Below, piece by piece: positions 34,677 through 44,170 of a stretch of 64,000 nucleotides of DNA. The translations under genes were made by a program, and so were the position numbers. Every line of letters starts with the position of its first letter. Positions within the stretch are counted from its first letter, which is position 1. The DNA is taken from NCBI RefSeq assembly GCF_020532625.1, contig NZ_JAJAUY010000010.1, positions 1 to 64,000 on the forward strand. The letters run 5' to 3'. The stretch comes from Streptomyces antimicrobicus. Its GTDB lineage: Bacteria; Actinomycetota; Actinomycetes; Streptomycetales; Streptomycetaceae. Below the pieces are notes generated by a model. The model was not told the DNA's origin. It made no database searches and saw nothing but the letters and a program-made list of their open reading frames with translations.

Positions 34677-34705
34677 AGCGTACCTACCGCACTCACTCCG
34701 GTCAA
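34677..34705 (-). promoter_or_regulatory. probable rpsL (str operon) promoter overlapping the rfbB stop codon
   Basis: On the minus strand TTGACC (34705 to 34700) and TACGCT (34682 to 34677) are separated by 17 nt. The -35 box includes the rfbB stop codon region, so the str promoter is embedded at the 3' end of the preceding gene. This predicts a leader of about 185 nt on the rpsL mRNA. Confidence 0.65.
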
Positions 34706-35742
34706 AACAAAAGCCGCGCCGCCGGGCGGCCCGACGGGGCCCGCAAAGGCCCAGCACAGGCCTCGCCGGAGGCCCTCAGCAGCGGCCTCCACCAGTCCGG
34801 GTTGTCCCGGTACCAGCGGACGGTGCGGGCCAGTCCGGTGGCCAGGTCGTGGCGCGGTGCGTAGCCGAGTTCGGCGCGGGCCTTGCCCCAGTCGACGCTG
34901 TAGCGCACGTCGTGGCCCTTGCGGTCCTCGACCAGGCGGACGGAGTCCCAGCTCGCGCCGCAGGCGTCGAGCAGCAGGGCGGTGAGCTCGCGGTTGGTGA
35001 GCTCGGTGCCGCCGCCGATGTTGTAGACCTCGCCCGGGCGGCCCTTGGTCCGTACGAGCTCGATGCCGCGGCAGTGGTCCTCGACGTGCAGCCAGTCGCG
35101 GACGTGCCGGCCGTCGCCGTACAGGGGGACGGTCAGCCCGTCGATCAGCCGGGTGACGAACAGCGGGACGATCTTCTCGGGGTACTGCATCGGGCCGTAG
35201 TTGTTGGAGCAGCGGGTGACGCGCACGTCCAGGCCGTGCGTGCGGTGGCAGGCCAGCGCCAGCAGGTCGGACGACGCCTTGGAGGCGGCGTACGGGGAAC
35301 TGGGCCGCAGCGGGTCGGTCTCCGGCCAGGAGCCGTGCTCGACGGAGCCGTACACCTCGTCGGTGGAGACGTGCACGAACGTACGGACGCCGTGGCGCAC
35401 GGCGGCGTCCAGCAGCGCCTGGGTACCGAGCACGTTGGTGCGGACGAAGGCGCCGCCGTCCTCGATGGAGCGGTCCACGTGCGACTCGGCGGCGAGGTGG
35501 ACCACGGTGTCCACACCGGGGAGGAGCGCGTCGAGCAGGGCGTGGTCGGTGATGTCGCCGCGGCGGAAGCGCAGGCGCGGATGATCGGCCAGGTCCGCGA
35601 GATTGGCGCGGTTGCCGGCGTACGTCAGCTTGTCGAGCACCGTGACGGTCAGGTCCGCGCGGGAGTCGGCGCCGGTCAGCAGCATGCGGGTGTAGTGCGA
35701 GCCGACGAAGCCGGCTCCCCCGGTCACGAGGACGTGCGGCAC
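34702..35742 (-). CDS. rfbB: dTDP-glucose 4,6-dehydratase
   Basis: This 346-residue extended SDR enzyme converts dTDP-glucose to dTDP-4-keto-6-deoxyglucose, the precursor of rhamnose and many deoxysugars. It has the NAD-binding T-G-G-A-G-F-V-G-S at 7-15, the catalytic S-T-D-E-V-Y-G at 126-132 (Asp128, Glu129) and Y-A-A-S-K at 151-155. The GTG at 35742 is preferred because GGAAAGG lies upstream and the Rossmann strand begins immediately; an ATG 13 codons further upstream is possible. No rfbA, C or D genes are near, so it must draw its substrate from elsewhere. It is divergent from the YfhO-like gene. Confidence 0.93.
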   Translation of the reverse strand: MPHVLVTGGAGFVGSHYTRMLLTGADSRADLTVTVLDKLTYAGNRANLADLADHPRLRFRRGDITDHALLDALLPGVDTVVHLAAESHVDRSIEDGGAFVRTNVLGTQALLDAAVRHGVRTFVHVSTDEVYGSVEHGSWPETDPLRPSSPYAASKASSDLLALACHRTHGLDVRVTRCSNNYGPMQYPEKIVPLFVTRLIDGLTVPLYGDGRHVRDWLHVEDHCRGIELVRTKGRPGEVYNIGGGTELTNRELTALLLDACGASWDSVRLVEDRKGHDVRYSVDWGKARAELGYAPRHDLATGLARTVRWYRDNPDWWRPLLRASGEACAGPLRAPSGRPAARLLF

Positions 35743-35847
35743 GGTCGGGCCTGCCTTTCCCTTGCTGAGCGGCCGGTCCATCCCGGCGAACTACACTTCC
35801 GGAGCGATCCCGCCCGAAGCGACCGAGCACGATCACAGGAGCAGCCA

Positions 35848-38415
35848 GTGGCGACCCCGTCCAGCCGACCCCGTACGTCCCGGTGGCTGACGGGCCTCGA
35901 CGGCCGTTCCCGTCTCGTGCGCCTCTCCCGCCCCTCCCGCCCCTCCAGTGTGGCGGGTCCTGGCGGTCCCGCGGGCCCTCTGCTCGCCTTCGCCGTCACC
36001 GTGACGGCGTTCTGCGCGGCCTGGGTGGCCCGGGGCTCGTTCCCCTTCGGCGCCACGGGCCGTGCGATCAACGACCAGGCCAACCAGTACGTGCCCTTCC
36101 ACCGCGCGCTGTGGGACCTGGCGCACGGCCAGGCGGCCGGCGACCTGCTGTTCACCTGGCGGGGCGGCTTCGGCCAGCAGTTCCTCTCCGACTACTACAC
36201 CTACCTGGGCAACCCGCTGTCCTGGCTGGCCGTCGTGGTCCCCCGCGCGCACGTGGACCTCGCCGTCTTCGTCGTCACCCCCCTGACCATGGGGCTCGCC
36301 GCCGCCGTGATGACGGTCTACCTCGGCAAGCTCGTGCCGGGCCCCTGGTGGCAGCGGGGCGTGCTCGGGGCGGCGTACGGCCTGTGCGGCTGGGCCCTGT
36401 CCGACGCCTCGTACATCCCGATGTGGCTGTGGGGCCTGGTGGCGCTGCCGATGCTCGGCATCGCGGTCGAGTGGTGCCTGGAGCGGCGGCGCTGGCCGGC
36501 CGCGACCGTCCTCGTCGCGCTCGCCTGGCTGGGCAACTTCTACACGGCGATGATGGCCACGATGGCGGCCTGCGTGCTGCTGCTGATCCGGCTGGTCGTC
36601 CTCGACCTGACCGGGCGGCAGCGCCTGCGCGCGCTGGGGCGGGCGGCCGGCGCCGCGGCCACCGGCATCCTGCTGAACCTTCCGCTGCTCCTGCCGTCCT
36701 TCCTGTCCAGCGGGGCGGCGCAGCCGACGAAGGCGGGGGCGTTCGACCCGGTCCGGCTGGAGATCTTCCTGACCGGCATGCTGCCGGCCACGCACCTGTG
36801 GGGCGGCCGGCCGCGGCTGTACATCGCCTCGCTGGGGATGGTCCTGGCCGGGACGTTCGTCCTCAACACGGCCGTCGCCCGGCGCACCCGGCTGGTGTGG
36901 ACGGTGGCGGTCGTGCTGGTCGCGGCCTCGTTCCAGTTCCCGCCCACCCAGTACGTCTGGCACGGTCTGGCGGTCCCGAACGGCAACCCGTACCGGGAGG
37001 CCTTCGTGTTCTCCGGGATGCTGGTGATCGTCGCCTGGATGTGCCTGGCCCACCGGCCGCGCCCGCTGCACCTGGCGGTGACCGCGGCCCTGATGGTGGC
37101 GGCCGCCTTCGTGCTGCGGCACACCGACGACTTCGGCGGGGCCACCTGGTACGCCGTCCTGGGCGGCGGCGCGGTCTCGCTGCTGGCCCTGTGCCTGCTC
37201 GCGCGCGCCGAGCGGCACCCCCGGCTGGTCCCGGTCGCCGCGGTCCTCATGGTCGCGGTGGTGCTGGGCGAGTCCGCGCTGGCCGCCCTGAACGCCGACC
37301 AGCGCCGGTCCCGCGAGGGCTGGGCGACACCGGCCGTCACCTCCAGCGGGTCGATCACCCGGCACTTCGAGGCGGTCCGCTCCGCCGACGGCTGGCCGGC
37401 CTACCGCACCGACTCCGGCTCGCCCCAGACCTCGTACAACGACGCCCTGGCCCTGCGCGCGGAGGGCCCGCAGTACTACAGCAGCTACCTGCCGGCCGCC
37501 ACCTTCGAGGCCCTGGAGCCCCTCGGGTACGGCTACAAGAACGACGGGCGCACGATCTTCGGCGCCGACAACCCGGTCCTGGACGCGATCTTCGCCATCG
37601 GCGCCCGGGTCCGCCCGGACGCCACCGGCGACGGCTGGCACGCCGACCGCTTCCCGGCCCCGCCCCTGGTCACGCTCCGCCCCACCCTGGCGTTCACCTC
37701 GCCGGCCCCGGCCGACAGCGTCTACGCCCGCCAGGAGAACGTCCTCGGCGCCGCGGTCCACGAGGTTCCGACCCCCACCCGCACCGGCGCCACCTGGACG
37801 GCGCGCTGCACCCCGGGCACGGAGGCCTTCTGGTACTCCCCCGACACCACGGGCACCCTGCGGACCGCCACGGGCACCTCGCTCCCCCTGGAGGCCAGGA
37901 TGACCGGCGTGGTGCGCCTGGGCCCGGTCCCCGCCTCGGGCGAGGTGAGGGCGACGGTCGACTCCGCCACGACCGGGCCGTCGGTCCCCGCCCACCCGAT
38001 CGGCTGCCTGGACCGCGCCCGCCTCGACGCCGCGATCGCGCACCTGCGCGCGACGGGCGCCACCCGCGTCCAGCCGGACGGCCACACCCTGAAGGCCACC
38101 TTCCCGGCCGGCTCCACCGGCACGGCCGTCATCGCCACCACGGCCACCCCCGGCTGGCAGTGCTCCCGCCCCACGACGCCCTTCCACGGCCTCCTGGCCG
38201 TCCCCCTCACGGGCGACACCACCACGATCACCTGCACCTACACCCCCAAGGGCCTCCTCCCCGGCCTCGCCGCGGGCGCAGCGGCCCTGGTGACCCTCCT
38301 GACGGCCTGCGCCACCACCCTCCACCGCAACCGCCGCACCCGCAGCACCCCCGAGCCCCCGGCAGGGCCTCACGGGGGAACCCAGGACGCGGCGGATCTT
38401 CGATCAGTACATTGA
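35848..38415 (+). CDS. YfhO-family integral membrane protein (putative glycosyltransferase)
   Basis: This 855-residue protein has about a dozen membrane helices from residue 45 to about 490 and an extracytoplasmic C-terminal domain, then a final helix near 815-835. The first loop carries N-D-Q-A-N-Q-Y-V-P-F and G-G-F-G-Q-Q-F-L-S-D-Y-Y-T-Y-L-G-N-P-L-S, typical of YfhO proteins, GT-C-like enzymes proposed to glycosylate lipoteichoic-acid-type or other surface polymers. The GTG at 35848 has AGGAG 7 nt upstream. An in-frame opening that extends 333 codons upstream is antisense to rfbB and is rejected. Its divergent neighbour rfbB suggests a link to surface sugars. Confidence 0.8.
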   Translation: MATPSSRPRTSRWLTGLDGRSRLVRLSRPSRPSSVAGPGGPAGPLLAFAVTVTAFCAAWVARGSFPFGATGRAINDQANQYVPFHRALWDLAHGQAAGDLLFTWRGGFGQQFLSDYYTYLGNPLSWLAVVVPRAHVDLAVFVVTPLTMGLAAAVMTVYLGKLVPGPWWQRGVLGAAYGLCGWALSDASYIPMWLWGLVALPMLGIAVEWCLERRRWPAATVLVALAWLGNFYTAMMATMAACVLLLIRLVVLDLTGRQRLRALGRAAGAAATGILLNLPLLLPSFLSSGAAQPTKAGAFDPVRLEIFLTGMLPATHLWGGRPRLYIASLGMVLAGTFVLNTAVARRTRLVWTVAVVLVAASFQFPPTQYVWHGLAVPNGNPYREAFVFSGMLVIVAWMCLAHRPRPLHLAVTAALMVAAAFVLRHTDDFGGATWYAVLGGGAVSLLALCLLARAERHPRLVPVAAVLMVAVVLGESALAALNADQRRSREGWATPAVTSSGSITRHFEAVRSADGWPAYRTDSGSPQTSYNDALALRAEGPQYYSSYLPAATFEALEPLGYGYKNDGRTIFGADNPVLDAIFAIGARVRPDATGDGWHADRFPAPPLVTLRPTLAFTSPAPADSVYARQENVLGAAVHEVPTPTRTGATWTARCTPGTEAFWYSPDTTGTLRTATGTSLPLEARMTGVVRLGPVPASGEVRATVDSATTGPSVPAHPIGCLDRARLDAAIAHLRATGATRVQPDGHTLKATFPAGSTGTAVIATTATPGWQCSRPTTPFHGLLAVPLTGDTTTITCTYTPKGLLPGLAAGAAALVTLLTACATTLHRNRRTRSTPEPPAGPHGGTQDAADLRSVH

Positions 38416-38441: not shown

Positions 38442-39149
38442 ATGGATTCCGCTGTTCTGCCTGGTGACGGCGGTCTCGGTGACCGGGTGCCGTTCCTGGC
38501 GCGGCTGGAGGCCGAGGACGCCTCCGCGTTACGGGGCCTCGGCCGCCCGATCACTTTCGCCGCCCGTTCCCCGCTCATGCAACAGCACGAGCCGTCCACC
38601 CATGTGCTGCTGATCCTCACCGGCTGGACCAAGGTCACCGTCGCCGGCGCCGGCGGCTACCACGCTCTGCTGGCCCTACGCGGCCCCGGCGACATCGTCG
38701 GCGAATCCGCCGGTGTCACCGGTCGGCCGCGCTCGGCCACCGTGACCGCACTCGAACCCGTCCAGGCCGTGGCCATCGATCAGCACGGCTTCCACACCTT
38801 TCTGGCGCACCGCCCCAGGGTCGCCCTCACCCTGCTCGGCCTCACCGCGGACCGGATCCGCGCAGCGGACCAGCGGCAGCTGGAGTTCGCGTCCATGAGC
38901 GTGCGCGAGCGCCTGGCCGCGCTGCTCATCGACCTCAGCCGGACCCATGGCCGGCGCACCGAGGACGGCGTCGAGATCACCGTCCCGCTGACGAAGCAGG
39001 AGCTCGCGGGTGCCGTCGGCGCCTCGCGCGAGATGGTGCAGCGCCAGCTCCGGGAGCTCCGCGCCCGCGGGGTCGTGAGCACCGGGCGGCGCGCGCTGGT
39101 GATCGTACGGCCGGACGTCCTGCACCGGATCGGTCGCCCGCACGCCTGA
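38442..39149 (+). CDS. Crp/Fnr-family transcriptional regulator with cNMP-binding signature
   Basis: This 235-residue regulator has a cyclic-nucleotide-binding beta barrel (about 15-130), a dimerisation helix (about 130-165) and a winged helix-turn-helix (about 180-220, L-T-K-Q-E-L-A-G-A-V-G-A-S-R-E-M-V-Q-R). The phosphate-binding cassette keeps Gly87, Glu88, Arg97, Ser98 and Ala99, the residues that hold cAMP in E. coli CRP, so ligand binding is plausible. There is no Fnr-type cysteine cluster. Codon 30 is TTA (38529-38531), rare in Streptomyces and read by the bldA tRNA. It begins 26 nt after the YfhO-like gene and lies 178 nt before the cyclase operon, to which it is probably functionally linked. 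It is probably not the principal housekeeping Crp, but that is uncertain. Confidence 0.88.
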   Translation: MDSAVLPGDGGLGDRVPFLARLEAEDASALRGLGRPITFAARSPLMQQHEPSTHVLLILTGWTKVTVAGAGGYHALLALRGPGDIVGESAGVTGRPRSATVTALEPVQAVAIDQHGFHTFLAHRPRVALTLLGLTADRIRAADQRQLEFASMSVRERLAALLIDLSRTHGRRTEDGVEITVPLTKQELAGAVGASREMVQRQLRELRARGVVSTGRRALVIVRPDVLHRIGRPHA

Positions 39150-39221
39150 GCCCGGCGCGCCAGCCGCGCCCGCCGCGCGCGCCGCTTCGCCGGCAGGACC
39201 GGGCGGGTCGGGCCCCCGCTC

Positions 39222-39237
39222 AGTGCACTCCGTCACA
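39222..39237 (+). promoter_or_regulatory. Crp-type operator match upstream of the cyclase operon
   Basis: GTG at 39223-39225, six bases, then GTCAC at 39232-39236 fits GTG-N6-GNCAC, the motif described for Streptomyces Crp. The right half TCACA is a perfect E. coli CRP half-site and the left half is AGTGC. It lies about 90 nt before the cyclase ATG, in the only sizeable spacer between the Crp-like gene and the operon. Confidence 0.55.
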
Positions 39238-39327
39238 GTCCGAGTGCGTCATCTGCCCTCACACCGGTGCGGCGTACGGCGCCACTCTGGTCGCGCTCGG
39301 ACCACGTGACGCCTGGGAGGCACCGCC

Positions 39328-40101
39328 ATGACCGGCCCGCTCTACCGCACCCTGCTCCTGTTCGACATCGAGAGGTTCAGCGACCGCGACGACGTGGAAC
39401 AGGCGTTCCTGCGCCGGATGCTCTACGACGTCGTGGACCGGATCCTCCAGGCGGCCGGCATCGACCGGACCCGCCACTTGCGGGAGGACCGCGGCGACGG
39501 CCTGCTCGTGGTGATCGACGCCAACGTCCCCGTGACGGGCCTGCTCAAGGTCCTGCTGACCGAGGGCCCCGGTCAGCTGCACGCGATGAACCGCATGGCC
39601 TCCAGCGCCGCCCAGATCCGGCTCCGTACGGTGCTCGCCACCGGATTCGTCACGCAGGACGCGGACGGGCCGGTGGGCACCGACGTCAACCTCGCGTTCC
39701 GGCTCCTGGACGCCGAGGCCCTGCGGGAGGCGCTGCGCACGGCGACGACGGACATCGCCCTGTGCGTGTCCGAGTCGGTCCACCGCGGCATCGTGCAGCA
39801 CGACCACCCCGGTATCCCGGCGGCCTCCTTCCACGAGATCACCGTGCACAGCAAGAACGGCCCGCTCCATGCCTGGCTCTACGGCTCTCCCCCGACGCCG
39901 GCCACCGCCCCGGCGGAAGCCGCCCAGGCCGCAGCCGTTCCCGCGCCCCCCGGCCCCGCCCCCTCGCCCTCCCCCGCCCTGCGTCCCCACGGCGGCCTCC
40001 ACTTCCGTGGTCGCAACACGGGTGTCGTCGCCCAGCAGATCACCGGCTCCGTGTTCCTGGGCGGCGGCGCCGGTGGGGCGGACCGGGGTGACCAGGCATG
40101 A
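39328..40101 (+). CDS. small class III nucleotide-cyclase-like protein with C-terminal Gly/Asn motif
   Basis: This 257-residue protein has a class III cyclase homology domain at about 5-187. Candidate catalytic residues are metal ligands Asp13 (L-L-F-D-I-E-R-F) and Asp57 (R-E-D-R-G-D-G), and the transition-state pair Asn121 and Arg125 (D-V-N-L-A-F-R-L). Glu53 takes the place of the adenine-selecting lysine, as in guanylate cyclases, so the base is uncertain. A Pro/Ala linker (about 188-220) leads to a C-terminal motif at 224-244 (L-H-F-R-G-R-N-T-G-V ... G-S-V) shared with the next protein. Its stop overlaps the next start (ATGA). It could make cGMP, cAMP or a pyrimidine cNMP as in Pycsar cyclases. 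An inactive sensor role is also possible. Confidence 0.7.
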   Translation: MTGPLYRTLLLFDIERFSDRDDVEQAFLRRMLYDVVDRILQAAGIDRTRHLREDRGDGLLVVIDANVPVTGLLKVLLTEGPGQLHAMNRMASSAAQIRLRTVLATGFVTQDADGPVGTDVNLAFRLLDAEALREALRTATTDIALCVSESVHRGIVQHDHPGIPAASFHEITVHSKNGPLHAWLYGSPPTPATAPAEAAQAAAVPAPPGPAPSPSPALRPHGGLHFRGRNTGVVAQQITGSVFLGGGAGGADRGDQA

Positions 40102-42254
40102 CGGCGGACCCCGTCGACGTCCGGCAGGGCGGGCCGGGTTCCCCGCAGCCCGCGGCCACGGCCGACGACAAGGAGCACCCCAAGGACAAGGCGGAGGAGA
40201 AGGGACGGGACAAGGGAGAAGCGGACGGGACCGAGGAGGCGGCGCAGGAGCAGCAGAAGCCGCAGGACGCCTGGGACACGCAGCGTGACCTGCACCGGCA
40301 CGCGCCTCGAAGCCTGCGTTTCCGCGGCACCAACCACGGAGTGTTCGCGGGCAGCGTCGCCGGCGGCGTCACGATCAACAACTTCGGCCCCAGCGGCCCT
40401 TTACGCACCTCGGGCGAGATGCCGCCGGCGGACCTCGCCGCCGAGACCGAGGGCTTCGTCCGCGACGGGACCCGCTTCGATGTGCTCCTCGACCGCCTGC
40501 GGCGGGACCCGCTGCTGGTGCTCGACGGTGCCCGTGCCACCGGACGGCGCACCGCCGCGCTCATGCTGCTGCGCGAGCTCGGCGCCACCCCCGTGCACGT
40601 GATCGACCGCAAGACCGCTCCTCAGGACATCGCCGGTCACGTGCGGGACGGCAAGGCCGGCGGGTACGTCCTGTGCGACCTGGTCACCAGCCCCGACAAG
40701 CCGCTGCGCGAGAGTCATGTGCTCGCCCTGCGGGACGCCCTCCGGGACCACGGCGCCTTCCTGGTCGTCACCACGGGGCTCCGACCGTGGGTGGAGGAGG
40801 ACGTGCCCACCAGCACCTGGCACCCGCCCGCCGCCGGCCCGCTGTTGCGCCGGCGTCTCGACGGACCGTTGGCCAGCTCCGAGGTGGACCGGCTCATGGC
40901 GCGGCCCGTCGTCACCGACTTCGTCGCCCGCGAACCGCAGCCGCGCGAAGTGGTCGCGTACGCCGGGCAGCTCGTCCGGTACGCCCGTGGCGAGGTCGAC
41001 GAGAACACGCTGGAGCAGACCTCGCTGGAGGCGCTGGAGCGCCAGGTCCAGGAGTGGTTCGAGGCGGACGAGACCACGGTCCACCTGCGGGAGAAGGCCT
41101 TCCTGATCGCCCAGGCCGTCTTCGACGACGGACCGTATGCGCTGACGGCCGAGCTCAGCGATCTGCTGTTCCTCGCCCTGCAGAAGACGGTGAACTCGGA
41201 GCTGCCGAGCAAGGTCCCCGTCTTCGGCACCAACATCGGCAAGCGGCTGCAACTCGGCCGGGTCCGCGGGTACGAGGCCGAAGAACCCACCGAGTGGGGA
41301 CCGGTGGTGCAGCGGAAGACCGCGTTCCATGACAACCGGACCGCGCCGGTGCTGCTGCAGGAGGTGTGGATCGGCCACCCGTCGGCGCGCCCGGCGCTCG
41401 TCGCGTGGCTCGACCGGCTCGTCGAGGACCGGCGCCCCTTCGTGCGCACCCGGGCGGCGGCGACCGTGGCCGCGCTCGCCTCCGCCGACCTGCCCTCCGC
41501 CATGGCCCTGATCGTCGAGCGCTGGGCGGTGTCACGGAACGCCCAGCGGCGTACCGGGGCCGTCAGTTCCCTGGTCCTCGCCCACGAGGCAGGCGCTCCC
41601 AACGTCCTGCGCATCGTCGACGACTGGACCACCGGGGAGGACCCGCAGCGGTGCTGGGTGGGGGTCCGGGCGCAGGGCCTGCTCGGCAAGGACCGGCCGG
41701 AGGCCGCCTTCGCGCAACTACGCATCCAGGCCCGCCGGCAGTACGGGAAGACGCCGGACCCTCTGCTGGCCGGCGAACTCGCCCAGTCCGTCGAGGTGCT
41801 CCTGCTCTCCGAGGCGGCCCCCCGCGTCCTCGCCGAGGTGCTGCGCACCCTCGACGACCACAAGGCCGTCCGCCGGCTCAGCATGGACGGATTCCTCAGG
41901 GCCTGCGGCCACACCGCGGACGGCCCGGGCTCCTGTCCACTGGTCCTCGGGCAGTTCGCGCAGGCCCGTGCCGCAGGGGGTCCCGCGGCCGAGGCGGTTC
42001 CGCGGCTGTGGCGGTACGCGCTCGGCGACCGCGCGCTCACCTCGGACGCCCTGGACAGGCTGACCGCCTGGGTCCGCGCCGCCGACACCGATCCGCGGAC
42101 CGAGAGCGCGTTGGCCGACCTGCTGCCCACCCTGATCGGGGACACCACCGACCTCCACCGCGTCCAGCACCTCCTCGCGACCGTCCGCGGTGAGGACGGC
42201 GGCCCCCGCCCCGCCGTCGCCGACCGGCTGTCGGCCCTGCTGCCCCGGCCCTGA
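40098..42254 (+). CDS. STAND-like degenerate P-loop protein with alpha-solenoid C-terminus
   Basis: This 718-residue protein begins with a charged disordered segment (about 22-56). A motif at 73-93 (L-R-F-R-G-T-N-H-G-V ... G-G-V) aligns without gaps to residues 224-244 of the preceding cyclase-like protein. A nucleotide-binding-like domain follows: Walker A G-A-R-A-T-G-R-R-T at 144-152 with Arg150 in place of Lys, a Walker B-like Y-V-L-C-D-L at 190-195 and a sensor-like F-L-V-V-T-T-G at 221-227. The rest, from about 260, is helical with HEAT/ARM-like character (for example 445-640). Codon 102 is TTA (40401-40403). It overlaps the cyclase by 4 nt. I infer a signalling NTPase or scaffold; no family search was possible. 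Confidence 0.6.
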   Translation: MTADPVDVRQGGPGSPQPAATADDKEHPKDKAEEKGRDKGEADGTEEAAQEQQKPQDAWDTQRDLHRHAPRSLRFRGTNHGVFAGSVAGGVTINNFGPSGPLRTSGEMPPADLAAETEGFVRDGTRFDVLLDRLRRDPLLVLDGARATGRRTAALMLLRELGATPVHVIDRKTAPQDIAGHVRDGKAGGYVLCDLVTSPDKPLRESHVLALRDALRDHGAFLVVTTGLRPWVEEDVPTSTWHPPAAGPLLRRRLDGPLASSEVDRLMARPVVTDFVAREPQPREVVAYAGQLVRYARGEVDENTLEQTSLEALERQVQEWFEADETTVHLREKAFLIAQAVFDDGPYALTAELSDLLFLALQKTVNSELPSKVPVFGTNIGKRLQLGRVRGYEAEEPTEWGPVVQRKTAFHDNRTAPVLLQEVWIGHPSARPALVAWLDRLVEDRRPFVRTRAAATVAALASADLPSAMALIVERWAVSRNAQRRTGAVSSLVLAHEAGAPNVLRIVDDWTTGEDPQRCWVGVRAQGLLGKDRPEAAFAQLRIQARRQYGKTPDPLLAGELAQSVEVLLLSEAAPRVLAEVLRTLDDHKAVRRLSMDGFLRACGHTADGPGSCPLVLGQFAQARAAGGPAAEAVPRLWRYALGDRALTSDALDRLTAWVRAADTDPRTESALADLLPTLIGDTTDLHRVQHLLATVRGEDGGPRPAVADRLSALLPRP

Positions 42255-42269
42255 GCACAAGGGAGACCC

Positions 42270-43229
42270 ATGTCCGCACCGAGGTTCGACTGGTTGCAGA
42301 CCGCCGACCGGCACACGGAGCTCAAGGACCCCGTGATCAGCGTCCGCCAGCTCGCCCTGCTGGACCTGCGCCGCACCCGGCTGACCCGCTTCGACCACTG
42401 CCTGGTCTACGCGACCAAGCACGGGGGGTACGAGACCTTCGTCCCGCCGGACCGTCCCAGAGGCACGAGCCGGTACCGCGCCGTGTACGAGGTGGACACC
42501 GGTCGGCACCCCGTCACCGTCGATCTGAAACTGCCCAGTGAGAACGACGCCCTCGAATTCCAGGCGAGCGTGGAGATCGAGTGGCAGGTGGCCGACGCGG
42601 TGGCGTACGTACGCAGCGGCTGCCGCGACGTGCCCCGCCTGCTGGCCGGCGAGCTGGAGAAGGCGGCCCGCCCGGTGGCCCGCCGGTTCGCCGTCACCGA
42701 CAGCGCGGGGGCCGAGGCCCGGTTGCTCGACGAGGCGGCCGGCTGGCCGCCGCTGGGCGCCACGGCCGGACTGACGACGAGCTGGACGCTGCGCCTTCGG
42801 CGCAACGACCAGGCCATCGCGCACCAGCTGCGCCTCCAGGAGATCGACCAGACCATGGACGAGAAGATCCACCACGAATGGCGCGGCGAGCAGCTCGACG
42901 CCGCGATCGACAGCAGGCGCGCGGCGCTCCTGCGGCTGCAGGCGGAGAGCGCCAAGCTCTACGAGGTCTTCCTGGAGCAGGGCGCCGTGCGCGCCTGGTC
43001 CTGGTACCTGGCGCAGTACCCCGACAGGGCCCACGAGATCGTGCAGAACATGCGGGCCGACCAGCAGGAGCTGGCACGGACGCAGCTCGCCTTGGTCAAG
43101 AGCCTCTTCGAGGCGGAGACCGCCGAGAACCACGAGCTCGCCGAACCCCGGCGGCACGCCCTCCAGACGCTGACCAAGGTGCTCGCCCAGCCGCTCGCGG
43201 GTGACCCGAATCCGCCGGAGGAGGGGTGA
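42270..43229 (+). CDS. SPFH/Band-7-like domain protein
   Basis: This 319-residue protein has no signal peptide or clear membrane helix. Residues about 65-180 (Y-R-A-V-Y-E-V-D-T-G-R-H-P-V-T-V-D-L-K-L-P-S, then beta strands and V-A-Y-V-R-S-G-C-R-D-V-P-R-L-L-A-G-E-L-E) look like the SPFH/Band-7 fold of prohibitin and stomatin proteins. A coiled-coil-like region follows (about 181-290, rich in Gln, Glu, Leu and Arg). It starts 15 nt after the STAND-like gene and overlaps the peptidase gene by 4 nt. SPFH proteins often scaffold membrane proteases, which fits the neighbour. The family assignment is by eye and moderate. Confidence 0.55.
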   Translation: MSAPRFDWLQTADRHTELKDPVISVRQLALLDLRRTRLTRFDHCLVYATKHGGYETFVPPDRPRGTSRYRAVYEVDTGRHPVTVDLKLPSENDALEFQASVEIEWQVADAVAYVRSGCRDVPRLLAGELEKAARPVARRFAVTDSAGAEARLLDEAAGWPPLGATAGLTTSWTLRLRRNDQAIAHQLRLQEIDQTMDEKIHHEWRGEQLDAAIDSRRAALLRLQAESAKLYEVFLEQGAVRAWSWYLAQYPDRAHEIVQNMRADQQELARTQLALVKSLFEAETAENHELAEPRRHALQTLTKVLAQPLAGDPNPPEEG

Positions 43230-44170
43230 CCGCCGTGGACATGCCGCCCGAGCATCCGGCCCGGCCCCAGGACGACCTGGACTACCGGCACGCCCCCGGC
43301 ACCCGCGCCGAGTACGTCGCCCACCAGCGTGGCGCCGGGCTGACGGCCCTCGGCCGGCTGCTCCTCCACCTGCCCGTGCTGCTGATCAACCTCGGCCTGG
43401 TGCTGCTGGCCGGCTGGGGTCTCCAGCAGTGGTGCGGACTTCCGTACGGGATCCTGCCCTGCCTGTGGCTGGCCGCGGGGCTGCTCACCTTCCACCGGCC
43501 GACCGAGGGTCTGCTGGCCCGCTACCTGCTCGGACTGCACCGGCCGCTGCCCCGGGAGCTGGCCGTTCTCGGGCCGGTCTGGCGCGAGGTCACCCTGCGC
43601 GCGGGGGTGGACGGCAGCCGCTACGAGCTGTGGATCGAGGACAGCGCGGACCTGACGGCTGCCGCGGCCGGCGGACACCTGGTGATCGTCACACGGCACG
43701 CGCTGGAGACGCTGTCCACCGCCCGGCTCGCCGCGGTCCTCGCGCACGAGCTGGGCCACCACACTGCGGGACACACCTGGGCCCGGCTCGTCAGCTGGTG
43801 GTACGCCCTGCCCGGCCGGCTGCTGTGGCTGGTGTTCCGCCCCGTCGGCCGGGCGGCGCGGCAGACCGCGCGGCAGCTGCCGGGCCCGGTCGCCGCGCTG
43901 CTGCTGATCAGCGCGCTCTGGGCGGCGCACGGTGCCCTGACCAGCCCTTACGGGCTGCTGCTGGGGTTCGGCCTGCTGCCCTTCCTCACCGCCTGGGTGG
44001 ACCGGCGCGACGAGCTGCGGGCGGACCGGCATGCCGCTGCCCTCGGCTTCGGCCCGGTGCTGGCGGAGCTGCTCGCCGAGGAGCCGGAGCCCGAGGAGAG
44101 CGGCACCCTGAGGCTGCTGCTCTCGTCCCGGCCTCCTGCGCGCACCCGCCTGCACCGCCTCGTGCGCTAG
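43226..44170 (+). CDS. M48-family integral membrane metallopeptidase (HtpX-like)
   Basis: This 314-residue protein has a zinc protease motif H-E-L-G-H at 174-178 and the third ligand Glu263 in D-E-L-R-A-D (262-267), the arrangement of M48 peptidases. Membrane segments are predicted at about 43-65, 73-89 and 222-256. The start is a GTG forming a GTGA overlap with the SPFH-like gene, so production is coupled. HtpX-type proteases act in membrane protein quality control and stress; here it is probably the membrane-acting arm of the four-gene operon. A bidirectional terminator lies just beyond. Confidence 0.85.
   Translation: MTAVDMPPEHPARPQDDLDYRHAPGTRAEYVAHQRGAGLTALGRLLLHLPVLLINLGLVLLAGWGLQQWCGLPYGILPCLWLAAGLLTFHRPTEGLLARYLLGLHRPLPRELAVLGPVWREVTLRAGVDGSRYELWIEDSADLTAAAAGGHLVIVTRHALETLSTARLAAVLAHELGHHTAGHTWARLVSWWYALPGRLLWLVFRPVGRAARQTARQLPGPVAALLLISALWAAHGALTSPYGLLLGFGLLPFLTAWVDRRDELRADRHAAALGFGPVLAELLAEEPEPEESGTLRLLLSSRPPARTRLHRLVR

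Follow-up and report, generated by a model that had tools for sequence, protein, structure and literature searches.

To our knowledge, how the cyclic-mononucleotide anti-phage cyclases sense infection is an open question. It is considered here for a group of plus-strand genes in a 64,000-nucleotide (nt) stretch of the Streptomyces antimicrobicus genome (contig NZ_JAJAUY010000010.1, positions 1 to 64,000; hereafter the window), which encode, one after the other, a Crp-like regulator, a cyclase-like protein, a STAND-like protein, an SPFH-like protein and a peptidase of the M48 family. The family to which this locus belongs offers a testable answer, in which an NLR-like receptor would nucleate the cyclase via a short matching motif. 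We give an even chance to the proposal that the locus encodes a receptor-gated second-messenger module, the whole chain of which serves immunity. Comparison with relatives establishes the cyclase fold and its residues, the co-inheritance of the genes, their overlap, the motif pairing, the operator and the association with the Pycsar effector PycTM. Three features are added here to a preliminary description of the locus, which was made from the letters of the sequence: the motif that matches between receptor and cyclase, the predicted operator and, in the window lineage, the loss of PycTM.

Organization of the locus

The five genes are the following.

38442 to 39149, plus strand: Crp/Fnr-type regulator P0001, 235 amino acids (HTH_Crp_2 6.1e-17, cNMP_binding 1.7e-15)
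39328 to 40101, plus strand: predicted divergent class III nucleotide cyclase P0002, 257 amino acids, core residues 1-187 (fold and profile matches)
40098 to 42254, plus strand: STAND/NLR-like protein P0003, 718 amino acids (predicted disordered head, NTPase at about 105-420, HEAT solenoid at about 430-718)
42270 to 43229, plus strand: SPFH/Band-7-like protein P0004, 319 amino acids (weak Band_7 match)
43226 to 44170, plus strand: membrane M48 metallopeptidase P0005, 314 amino acids (Peptidase_M48 4e-12)

Among these proteins only the Crp regulator and the M48 peptidase match Pfam above cut-off. The tight coupling of the last four genes was described correctly, with 4-nt overlaps at 40098-40101 and 43226-43229 and a 15-nt gap at 42255-42269. 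Relatives were compared in two sets. The first is a sample of 101 genomes of the same genus, in which a P0002 homologue was called at E ≤ 0.001 and a close orthologue at E < 1e-40, and from which 18 regions around close and 20 around distant homologues were compared; the second is a named-genome set consisting of the best 80 of 190 relatives, all Streptomyces, which leans to close orthologues. Crp, cyclase, STAND-like, SPFH-like and M48 genes are co-conserved in Streptomyces in one order, which in the named loci reads rpsL, crp, cyclase, STAND, SPFH, PycTM, M48, rpoC, and in 71 of 73 named loci the last 4 nt of the cyclase gene are also the first 4 nt of the STAND gene. This recurrent overlap and the common order show that the arrangement is more than chance.

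P0002 has the predicted fold of a class III cyclase

P0002 matches no Pfam, NCBIfam or PADLOC family at E ≤ 1. A profile of its family run against PDB sequences meets class III cyclases (3et6, 9.3e-5; 5d0g, 9.4e-5; 3mr7, 1.6e-4). The AlphaFold2 (AF2) model of P0002 has a predicted local distance difference test score (pLDDT) of 85.0, above 90 over most blocks of the core and low in the tail; Foldseek places it with class III cyclases (best match 2w01, 4.5e-9; 145 matches at E ≤ 0.001), and VIA aligns it with 5d0g (Ma1120) over 156 residues at 2.5 Å (Z 17.1). A GGDEF or otherwise unrelated fold is rejected by these same matches. As judged from the model, the domain first called cyclase-like thus has the fold of a class III cyclase, together with the aspartates expected to bind metal. 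Among the residues singled out in the preliminary description, D13, D57 and R125 are, with G56, invariant in 35 aligned members of the cyclase family, while N121 is invariant in a 53-row orthologue alignment and not in the wider family.

The base-selecting position 53 is Glu in the window protein and Ala in at least 90% of orthologues. As this position varies, the substrate of the cyclase is not predictable from its residues, and naming the nucleotide in this way was given up, the Crp regulator having an Asp at its own base-contact site. That the messenger is cGMP, by likeness to the acidic residue of XC_0249 (PMC11224242), is only a guess. The Glu at position 53 might also mean that the cyclase-like protein is a non-catalytic nucleotide-binding adaptor and that Crp reads a ligand coming from elsewhere, and inactive cyclic nucleoside monophosphate (cNMP) cyclase domains have been reported in other conflict systems (PMC7159879). 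We find this distinctly unlikely: both metal aspartates and the transition-state Asn and Arg are kept in orthologues, and Crp and cyclase stand together even in distant loci, a Crp match being present in 15 of the 20 from the same genus. Elsewhere in the window genome there is one ordinary Guanylate_cyc (PF00211) match (G000:C263:60089-60454), so that canonical class III signalling may coexist there with the locus described here.

P0003 is predicted to be an NLR-like receptor

In the AF2 model of P0003 (pLDDT 88.3, predicted template modelling score 0.85), a disordered head leads into an NTPase module, which is followed by a helical solenoid. VIA aligns it with 2qen over 263 residues at 4.1 Å (Z 12.8), with the plant TIR-NLR WRR4A (Z 11.7), with CED-4 over residues 105-465 (Z 11.0) and, in its C-terminal part, with HEAT proteins, these Z values being middling by the tool's own yardstick. 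Distant homologues match nSTAND3 (6.8e-6 in locus L051, 0.9 bits below cut-off) and HEAT_2 (1.2e-6, above cut-off). The model therefore describes P0003 as an NLR-like STAND NTPase fold followed by C-terminal HEAT-like repeats at about 430-718. The degenerate P-loop and the solenoid of the preliminary description are both recovered, the former as the following element.

40527 to 40553, plus strand: degenerate Walker A GARATGRRT, residues 144-152; a distant homologue in L053 keeps GAPGYGKT

A matching motif in the cyclase tail and the STAND head

Within each locus, the cyclase C-terminus and the STAND N-terminus have in common a Gly-rich motif of about 25 residues, found in the window at two places.

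39997 to 40065, plus strand: cyclase C-terminal pairing motif LHFRGRNTGVVAQQITGSVFLGG, similar to the STAND N-terminal motif
40314 to 40388, plus strand: STAND N-terminal pairing motif LRFRGTNHGVFAGSVAGGVTINNFG; residues 77-101 of P0003 have a pLDDT below 50 in the monomer model

A clear example is the pair of locus L037, GGVFGGTNHGIGGGTFSGDIHLG and GGVFGGINHGIGGGTFSGDIHLG. The match is significant at p ≤ 0.005 against shuffled heads in 71 of 74 cyclase–STAND pairs, and in 73 of the 74 the cyclase motif scores higher in the STAND head than in the other 605 residues of the protein. The pairing is also largely specific to the locus. When the nearest relative was taken below a core identity of 0.70, the cognate head scored higher than the relative's head in 66 pairs and lower in 8; below 0.90 the figures were 55 and 17, with 2 ties (sign test, p 8e-6). 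The sign test held at six identity limits, with 49-66 wins and 8-22 losses out of 74, and these losses mean that the cognate partner is usually, but not always, the better match. Locus L126 has a motif variant of its own, present in both proteins (DQNNVTGNSVGGDF), and in the non-Streptomyces loci L193, L195 and L197 the same layout is written in different letters that match within the locus (p 0.001 each). An earlier test on 31 pairs, in which no permutation out of 20,000 scored as high, suffered from over-extended STAND N-termini and low-complexity linkers and was replaced by the 74-pair test, made with corrected starts.

On these alignments, the layout of the cyclase–STAND pair is that of bacterial amyloid signalling sequences (BASS), with the cyclase in the place of the effector, and the matching short tag suggests that the receptor switches the cyclase on. 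A static tether would be another use for such a tag: the STAND protein would keep the cyclase inactive by beta-solenoid pairing and free it upon sensing, with no amyloid-like templating. Co-variation of the motifs fits any specific pairing, and the 4-nt gene overlap suggests co-translational assembly. However, an effector C-terminus matched to a receptor N-terminus is the layout of BASS and of fungal amyloid signalosomes (PMC7889193), and class III cyclases are generally dimeric when active (PMC4886424), so that clustering is a simple on-switch. We thus regard the tether as unlikely, and prefer activation through a templated assembly.

A Crp-type regulator with a predicted operator in front of the cyclase

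The Crp regulator keeps its cNMP cassette, as first described for the cAMP-cassette residues, with E88 and R97 in 77/77 orthologues and S98 in 72/77. The cAMP base contacts, Thr127/Ser128 in Escherichia coli CRP and Thr/Asn in Mycobacterium CRP, are not kept; in an alignment that includes the Mycobacterium CRP structures the pair is A142/D143, and D143 is found in 77/77 orthologues. This suggests that the nucleotide read by Crp does not carry adenine. The recognition helix is of the CRP type (ASREMVQR), with S195, R196, E197 and V199 in 77/77 and R201 in 76/77. Two conserved elements lie between crp and the cyclase gene.

39222 to 39237, plus strand: predicted operator of the Crp regulator, AGTGCACTCCGTCACA, 106 nt upstream of the cyclase start codon
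39242 to 39260, plus strand: second conserved block GAGTGCGTCATCTGCCCTC, which closely follows the operator; the consensus of 77 loci, GAGTGCGTCATC.GCCCTC, forms an imperfect inverted repeat

In all 77 loci this intergenic region contains a 16-mer with at least 8 of 10 matches to TGTGAN6TCACA, mostly 98-108 nt before the cyclase, and GTG-N8-CAC is present there in 73 of 77, compared with a mean of 5.0 in shuffled sequences. The latter pattern is not enriched upstream of crp itself (2/77, versus 4.0 in shuffles). The window genome has one exact site for GTGCACNCNGTCACA, and allowing a single mismatch adds seven; with the pattern reversed as a control, one is obtained. The Crp-type regulator thus appears to control the cyclase operon through the predicted operator. 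The second block may serve as a promoter element or as another operator.

Membrane genes, and the loss of PycTM in the window lineage

The SPFH-like gene is present as described, and its label is weak by sequence: the Band_7 match has an E value of 0.058 in the window, 4 of 20 orthologues match (best 2.4e-4), and P0004 has no PDB sequence match at E ≤ 1. The M48 peptidase was correctly recognized, with a Peptidase_M48 match of 4e-12 and an HELGH motif that is found in 57/57 orthologues.

43745 to 43759, plus strand: HELGH of P0005
44012 to 44026, plus strand: ELRAD of P0005

Most relatives have, between SPFH and M48, a gene for a protein with two transmembrane segments, the Pycsar effector PycTM (PF18967 at 4.5e-23 in L033 and 3.2e-22 in L036; PADLOC PycTM at 5.1e-14). 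It is there in 53 of the 59 named loci with complete flanking genes, and in 65 of 76 when a partly overlapping unnamed set is added. The kinship with Pycsar, first proposed as one of logic, is therefore more than that, PycTM being part of the operon of most relatives. The 101 same-genus genomes contain 94 PycTM matches, of which 42 have a P0002-family cyclase within 8 kb, where uniform placement would give about 0.23; the effector is within 8 kb of 11/19 close, 15/35 intermediate and 16/31 distant cyclases. The PADLOC models tried do not detect this cyclase family, and systems of this kind are therefore likely to be more numerous in Streptomyces than present counts suggest.

The window, S. katrae and S. 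lavendulae lack PycTM and form one clade (support 100). On a 66-row tree PycTM needs at least four changes, best read by a quick method as four losses, and in three of the six named PycTM-less loci (L116, L118 and L132) the 0.6-0.8 kb between SPFH and M48 contain no open reading frame (ORF) and no PycTM profile match. One may ask whether the window lineage carries a Pycsar system in decay after the loss of its effector, as the absence of PycTM from the whole clade and from the whole window genome would allow. The five ORFs, the catalytic residues, the operator and the motif are however retained, and between the two PycTM-less species S. katrae and S. lavendulae the ratio of nonsynonymous to synonymous substitution rates (dN/dS) is 0.206 for crp, 0.266 for the cyclase, 0.322 for STAND, 0.283 for SPFH and 0.273 for M48 (0.21-0.32 overall). 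The five genes thus remain under purifying selection after PycTM loss, and decay is very unlikely.

Presence or absence at one chromosomal site

A P0002 homologue is found in 61 of the 101 same-genus genomes and a close one in 19, the window genome included. rpsL and/or rpoC stand beside 76 of the 80 named loci (both in 58), and the loci with neither are on four short contigs. L049 is the sole probable exception among the 18 same-genus orthologue regions: it has no rpoC match and no gene pair of rpsL/rpsG size, and this copy probably sits elsewhere in its genome. No module gene is found beside rpsL in any of 20 same-genus genomes checked that have no close orthologue; in 14 of them the rpoC–rpsL gap is 343-4968 nt, and the other six gave no rpoC within 11 kb. 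What differs between genomes is therefore whether the module occupies this site, not where it lies. Accordingly, the variable location proposed at first as a sign of mobility mostly failed to appear, and for the orthologue group we reject a mobile island; the more distant members of the family are also found at other genomic places. A phage origin is rejected as well, P0002 having no match in the phage collection, and so is plasmid spread, the five plasmid records with a homologue holding only a solitary one. In the orthologue group the genes were not found scattered and the predicted cyclase fold is not an unrelated one, two outcomes that would have spoken against the module as first proposed.

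A largely fixed position beside rpoC also suits another purpose for the same wiring, a cNMP circuit for stress or development instead of immunity. The STAND–HEAT protein would then sense an internal state, for instance stress on the envelope or on proteostasis, and a membrane-quality response would be provided by Crp, SPFH and M48. Families commonly engaged in membrane quality control include SPFH and M48; moreover, the module can do without PycTM (four changes on the tree), and the five genes are under purifying selection in its absence. Several observations speak against such a circuit. Its distribution is patchy, with close orthologues in 19/101 genomes and no module gene at the site in the 20 genomes checked that lack them, which is odd for a housekeeping function; the link to PycTM, an anti-phage effector, is recurrent; and the receptor evolves faster than Crp (dN/dS 0.50 versus 0.19, window versus S. 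lavendulae). We consider a stress circuit rather unlikely, although it is, with the static tether, one of the two main rivals of the immune model.

A model for receptor-gated signalling

In the immune model that we favour, the HEAT solenoid would sense an invader or internal damage, the NTPase module of the STAND protein would oligomerise, and the exposed motifs would nucleate a homotypic, probably amyloid-like assembly in which the cyclase is recruited and dimerised. The cyclic nucleotide, probably not plain cAMP, would switch Crp and so amplify the operon, and would also switch the membrane effectors, PycTM where it is present; in the PycTM-less window lineage the output may pass via SPFH and M48 or via other Crp targets. 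The likely purpose would be an altruistic or dormancy-type defence of the multicellular mycelium. That an NLR activates the cyclase by a pair-specific amyloid-like motif, and that the messenger drives both a CRP-type switch and Pycsar-type membrane killers, is a tentative proposal to which we give somewhat less than an even chance.

Several observations weigh against this model. In the receptor, the Walker A lysine is lost, which makes ATP-driven switching doubtful, and Foldseek of the whole P0003 model returns mainly repeat proteins (two matches at E ≤ 0.001, both of this kind); the STAND NTPase fold was assigned from the VIA alignment. The window motif pair is weak, with a score of 48 (p 0.005) compared with a median of 107, and ranked 9 and 5 of 31 in the earlier test; the L113 pair gives no motif match (p 0.968), and only 6 of 13 distant pairs reach p ≤ 0.01, among them, besides the three non-Streptomyces pairs, L053, which aligns mainly low-complexity sequence. 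On the output side, PycTM is missing from the window operon and from the whole window genome (profile, tblastn and genome search agree), and the PADLOC Pycsar cyclase models match none of five family cyclases, P0002 and four more. Finally, most copies of the locus keep their place beside rpoC, which is not the behaviour of a typical mobile defence island.

Relation to known systems

As proposed, the module would work like both BASS and Pycsar. BASS are the NLR–amyloid signalosomes of Dyrka 2020 (reviewed in PMC7889193), abundant in filamentous actinobacteria. As in BASS, the gene pair is adjacent or overlapping and the motif stands at the effector C-terminus and the NLR-like N-terminus (PMC7889193), a 20-40 amino acid match of this kind being found in the 71 of 74 pairs. 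The effector here is a class III cyclase, whereas those of BASS are Bell, CHAT or TIR (PMC7889193), and because of this difference in effector type we do not class the module as a BASS member. In addition, its operon contains Crp, SPFH, PycTM and M48, and the likeness of its motif to BASS is one of layout. The word "cyclase" is absent from the main text of PMC7889193, PMC8086366 and PMC12261475.

With Pycsar the module shares a class III cyclase, a cNMP-binding receptor and, in most relatives, PycTM; its metal aspartates are 44 residues apart, like D102 and D146 of EaPycC (PMC11224242). It differs from Pycsar in that its cyclase lies outside the PADLOC PycC models, has base-selecting residues that vary and that differ from those of Pycsar, the product of which is cUMP or cCMP, and is tied by a motif to a STAND receptor, and in that it has a Crp transcription factor in place of PycTIR, together with SPFH and M48. 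Because the window has no Pycsar effector and its cyclase goes unrecognised by the PADLOC models, we do not class the module as Pycsar.

The principle of a STAND-linked cyclase has a precedent, as cNMP cyclases were predicted to be joined to STAND proteins by helical adaptors (Kaur 2020, PMC7159879; Kaur 2021, PMC8195603). In the iSTAND and VMAP systems of these articles a STAND or NTPase core recruits effectors, rarely cNMP cyclases, by homotypic adaptors; a cNMP cyclase is coupled to Band 7, and CRP-like factors are tied to some systems. Their adaptors are mostly alpha-helical, of the EAD or Death-like type, where the module has a short Gly-rich motif, and PycTM and M48 are not mentioned in the excerpts of PMC7159879 and PMC8195603. 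The orthologue group also has no trypsin, caspase or vWA core (vWA occurs in the distant loci L051, L053 and L060). Like the DUF2652 proteins (PMC4886424), P0002 is a previously unrecognised soluble class III cyclase, by prediction, with two metal aspartates; unlike them, it has no match to that Pfam family at E ≤ 1. Searches of open-licence PMC papers gave no description of the short pairing motif, of a Crp switch dedicated to such an operon or of the PycTM–SPFH–M48 set.

If correct, our model joins two immune principles that were described separately, NLR amyloid signalosomes and cyclic-nucleotide anti-phage signalling; it would explain the activation of at least one kind of PycTM-linked cyclase and would add a transcriptional memory arm. 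The family lends itself to such work: about 74 co-varying motif pairs form a natural set for specificity tests, the single conserved predicted operator could serve as a reporter of nucleotide-loaded Crp, and lineages with and without PycTM are a natural means of separating alarm from killing.

Flanking genes and stray relatives

All five ORFs of the plus-strand run are as first described, but the run comprises six genes, as a YfhO-type gene precedes crp.

35950 to 38415, plus strand: YfhO-type membrane-protein gene (PF09586 4e-60), which stops 26 nt before crp

In the window clade this gene and a minus-strand NAD-dependent epimerase-type gene lie between rpsL and crp (window 34702-38415); a YfhO-like match is found in 7 of the 80 named loci.

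In the distant loci L057, L061, L065, L066 and L069, Crp, cyclase, STAND, SPFH and PycTM are found again with very different sequences, and in L051, L053 and L060 the cyclase is paired with a STAND and an SPFH-like protein. A vWA-like gene follows in L051, where the label was given by eye, in L053 and likewise in L060; the SPFH-like protein of L053 has a weak C-terminal vWA match (0.0015). Outside the genus the cyclase family was sampled in 20 PycTM-bearing genomes of other genera: 14 of them have it, five within 8 kb of PycTM. Lastly, Streptomyces plasmids carry solitary P0002-type cores at 46-54% identity (L170:7614-8558, L171:7710-8567 and L172:7812-8549), which have an N-terminal extension, no C-terminal motif and no annotated Crp, STAND or M48 neighbours. 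In L172 an Asn replaces the first metal aspartate. These plasmid cores might be decoys or dominant negatives.

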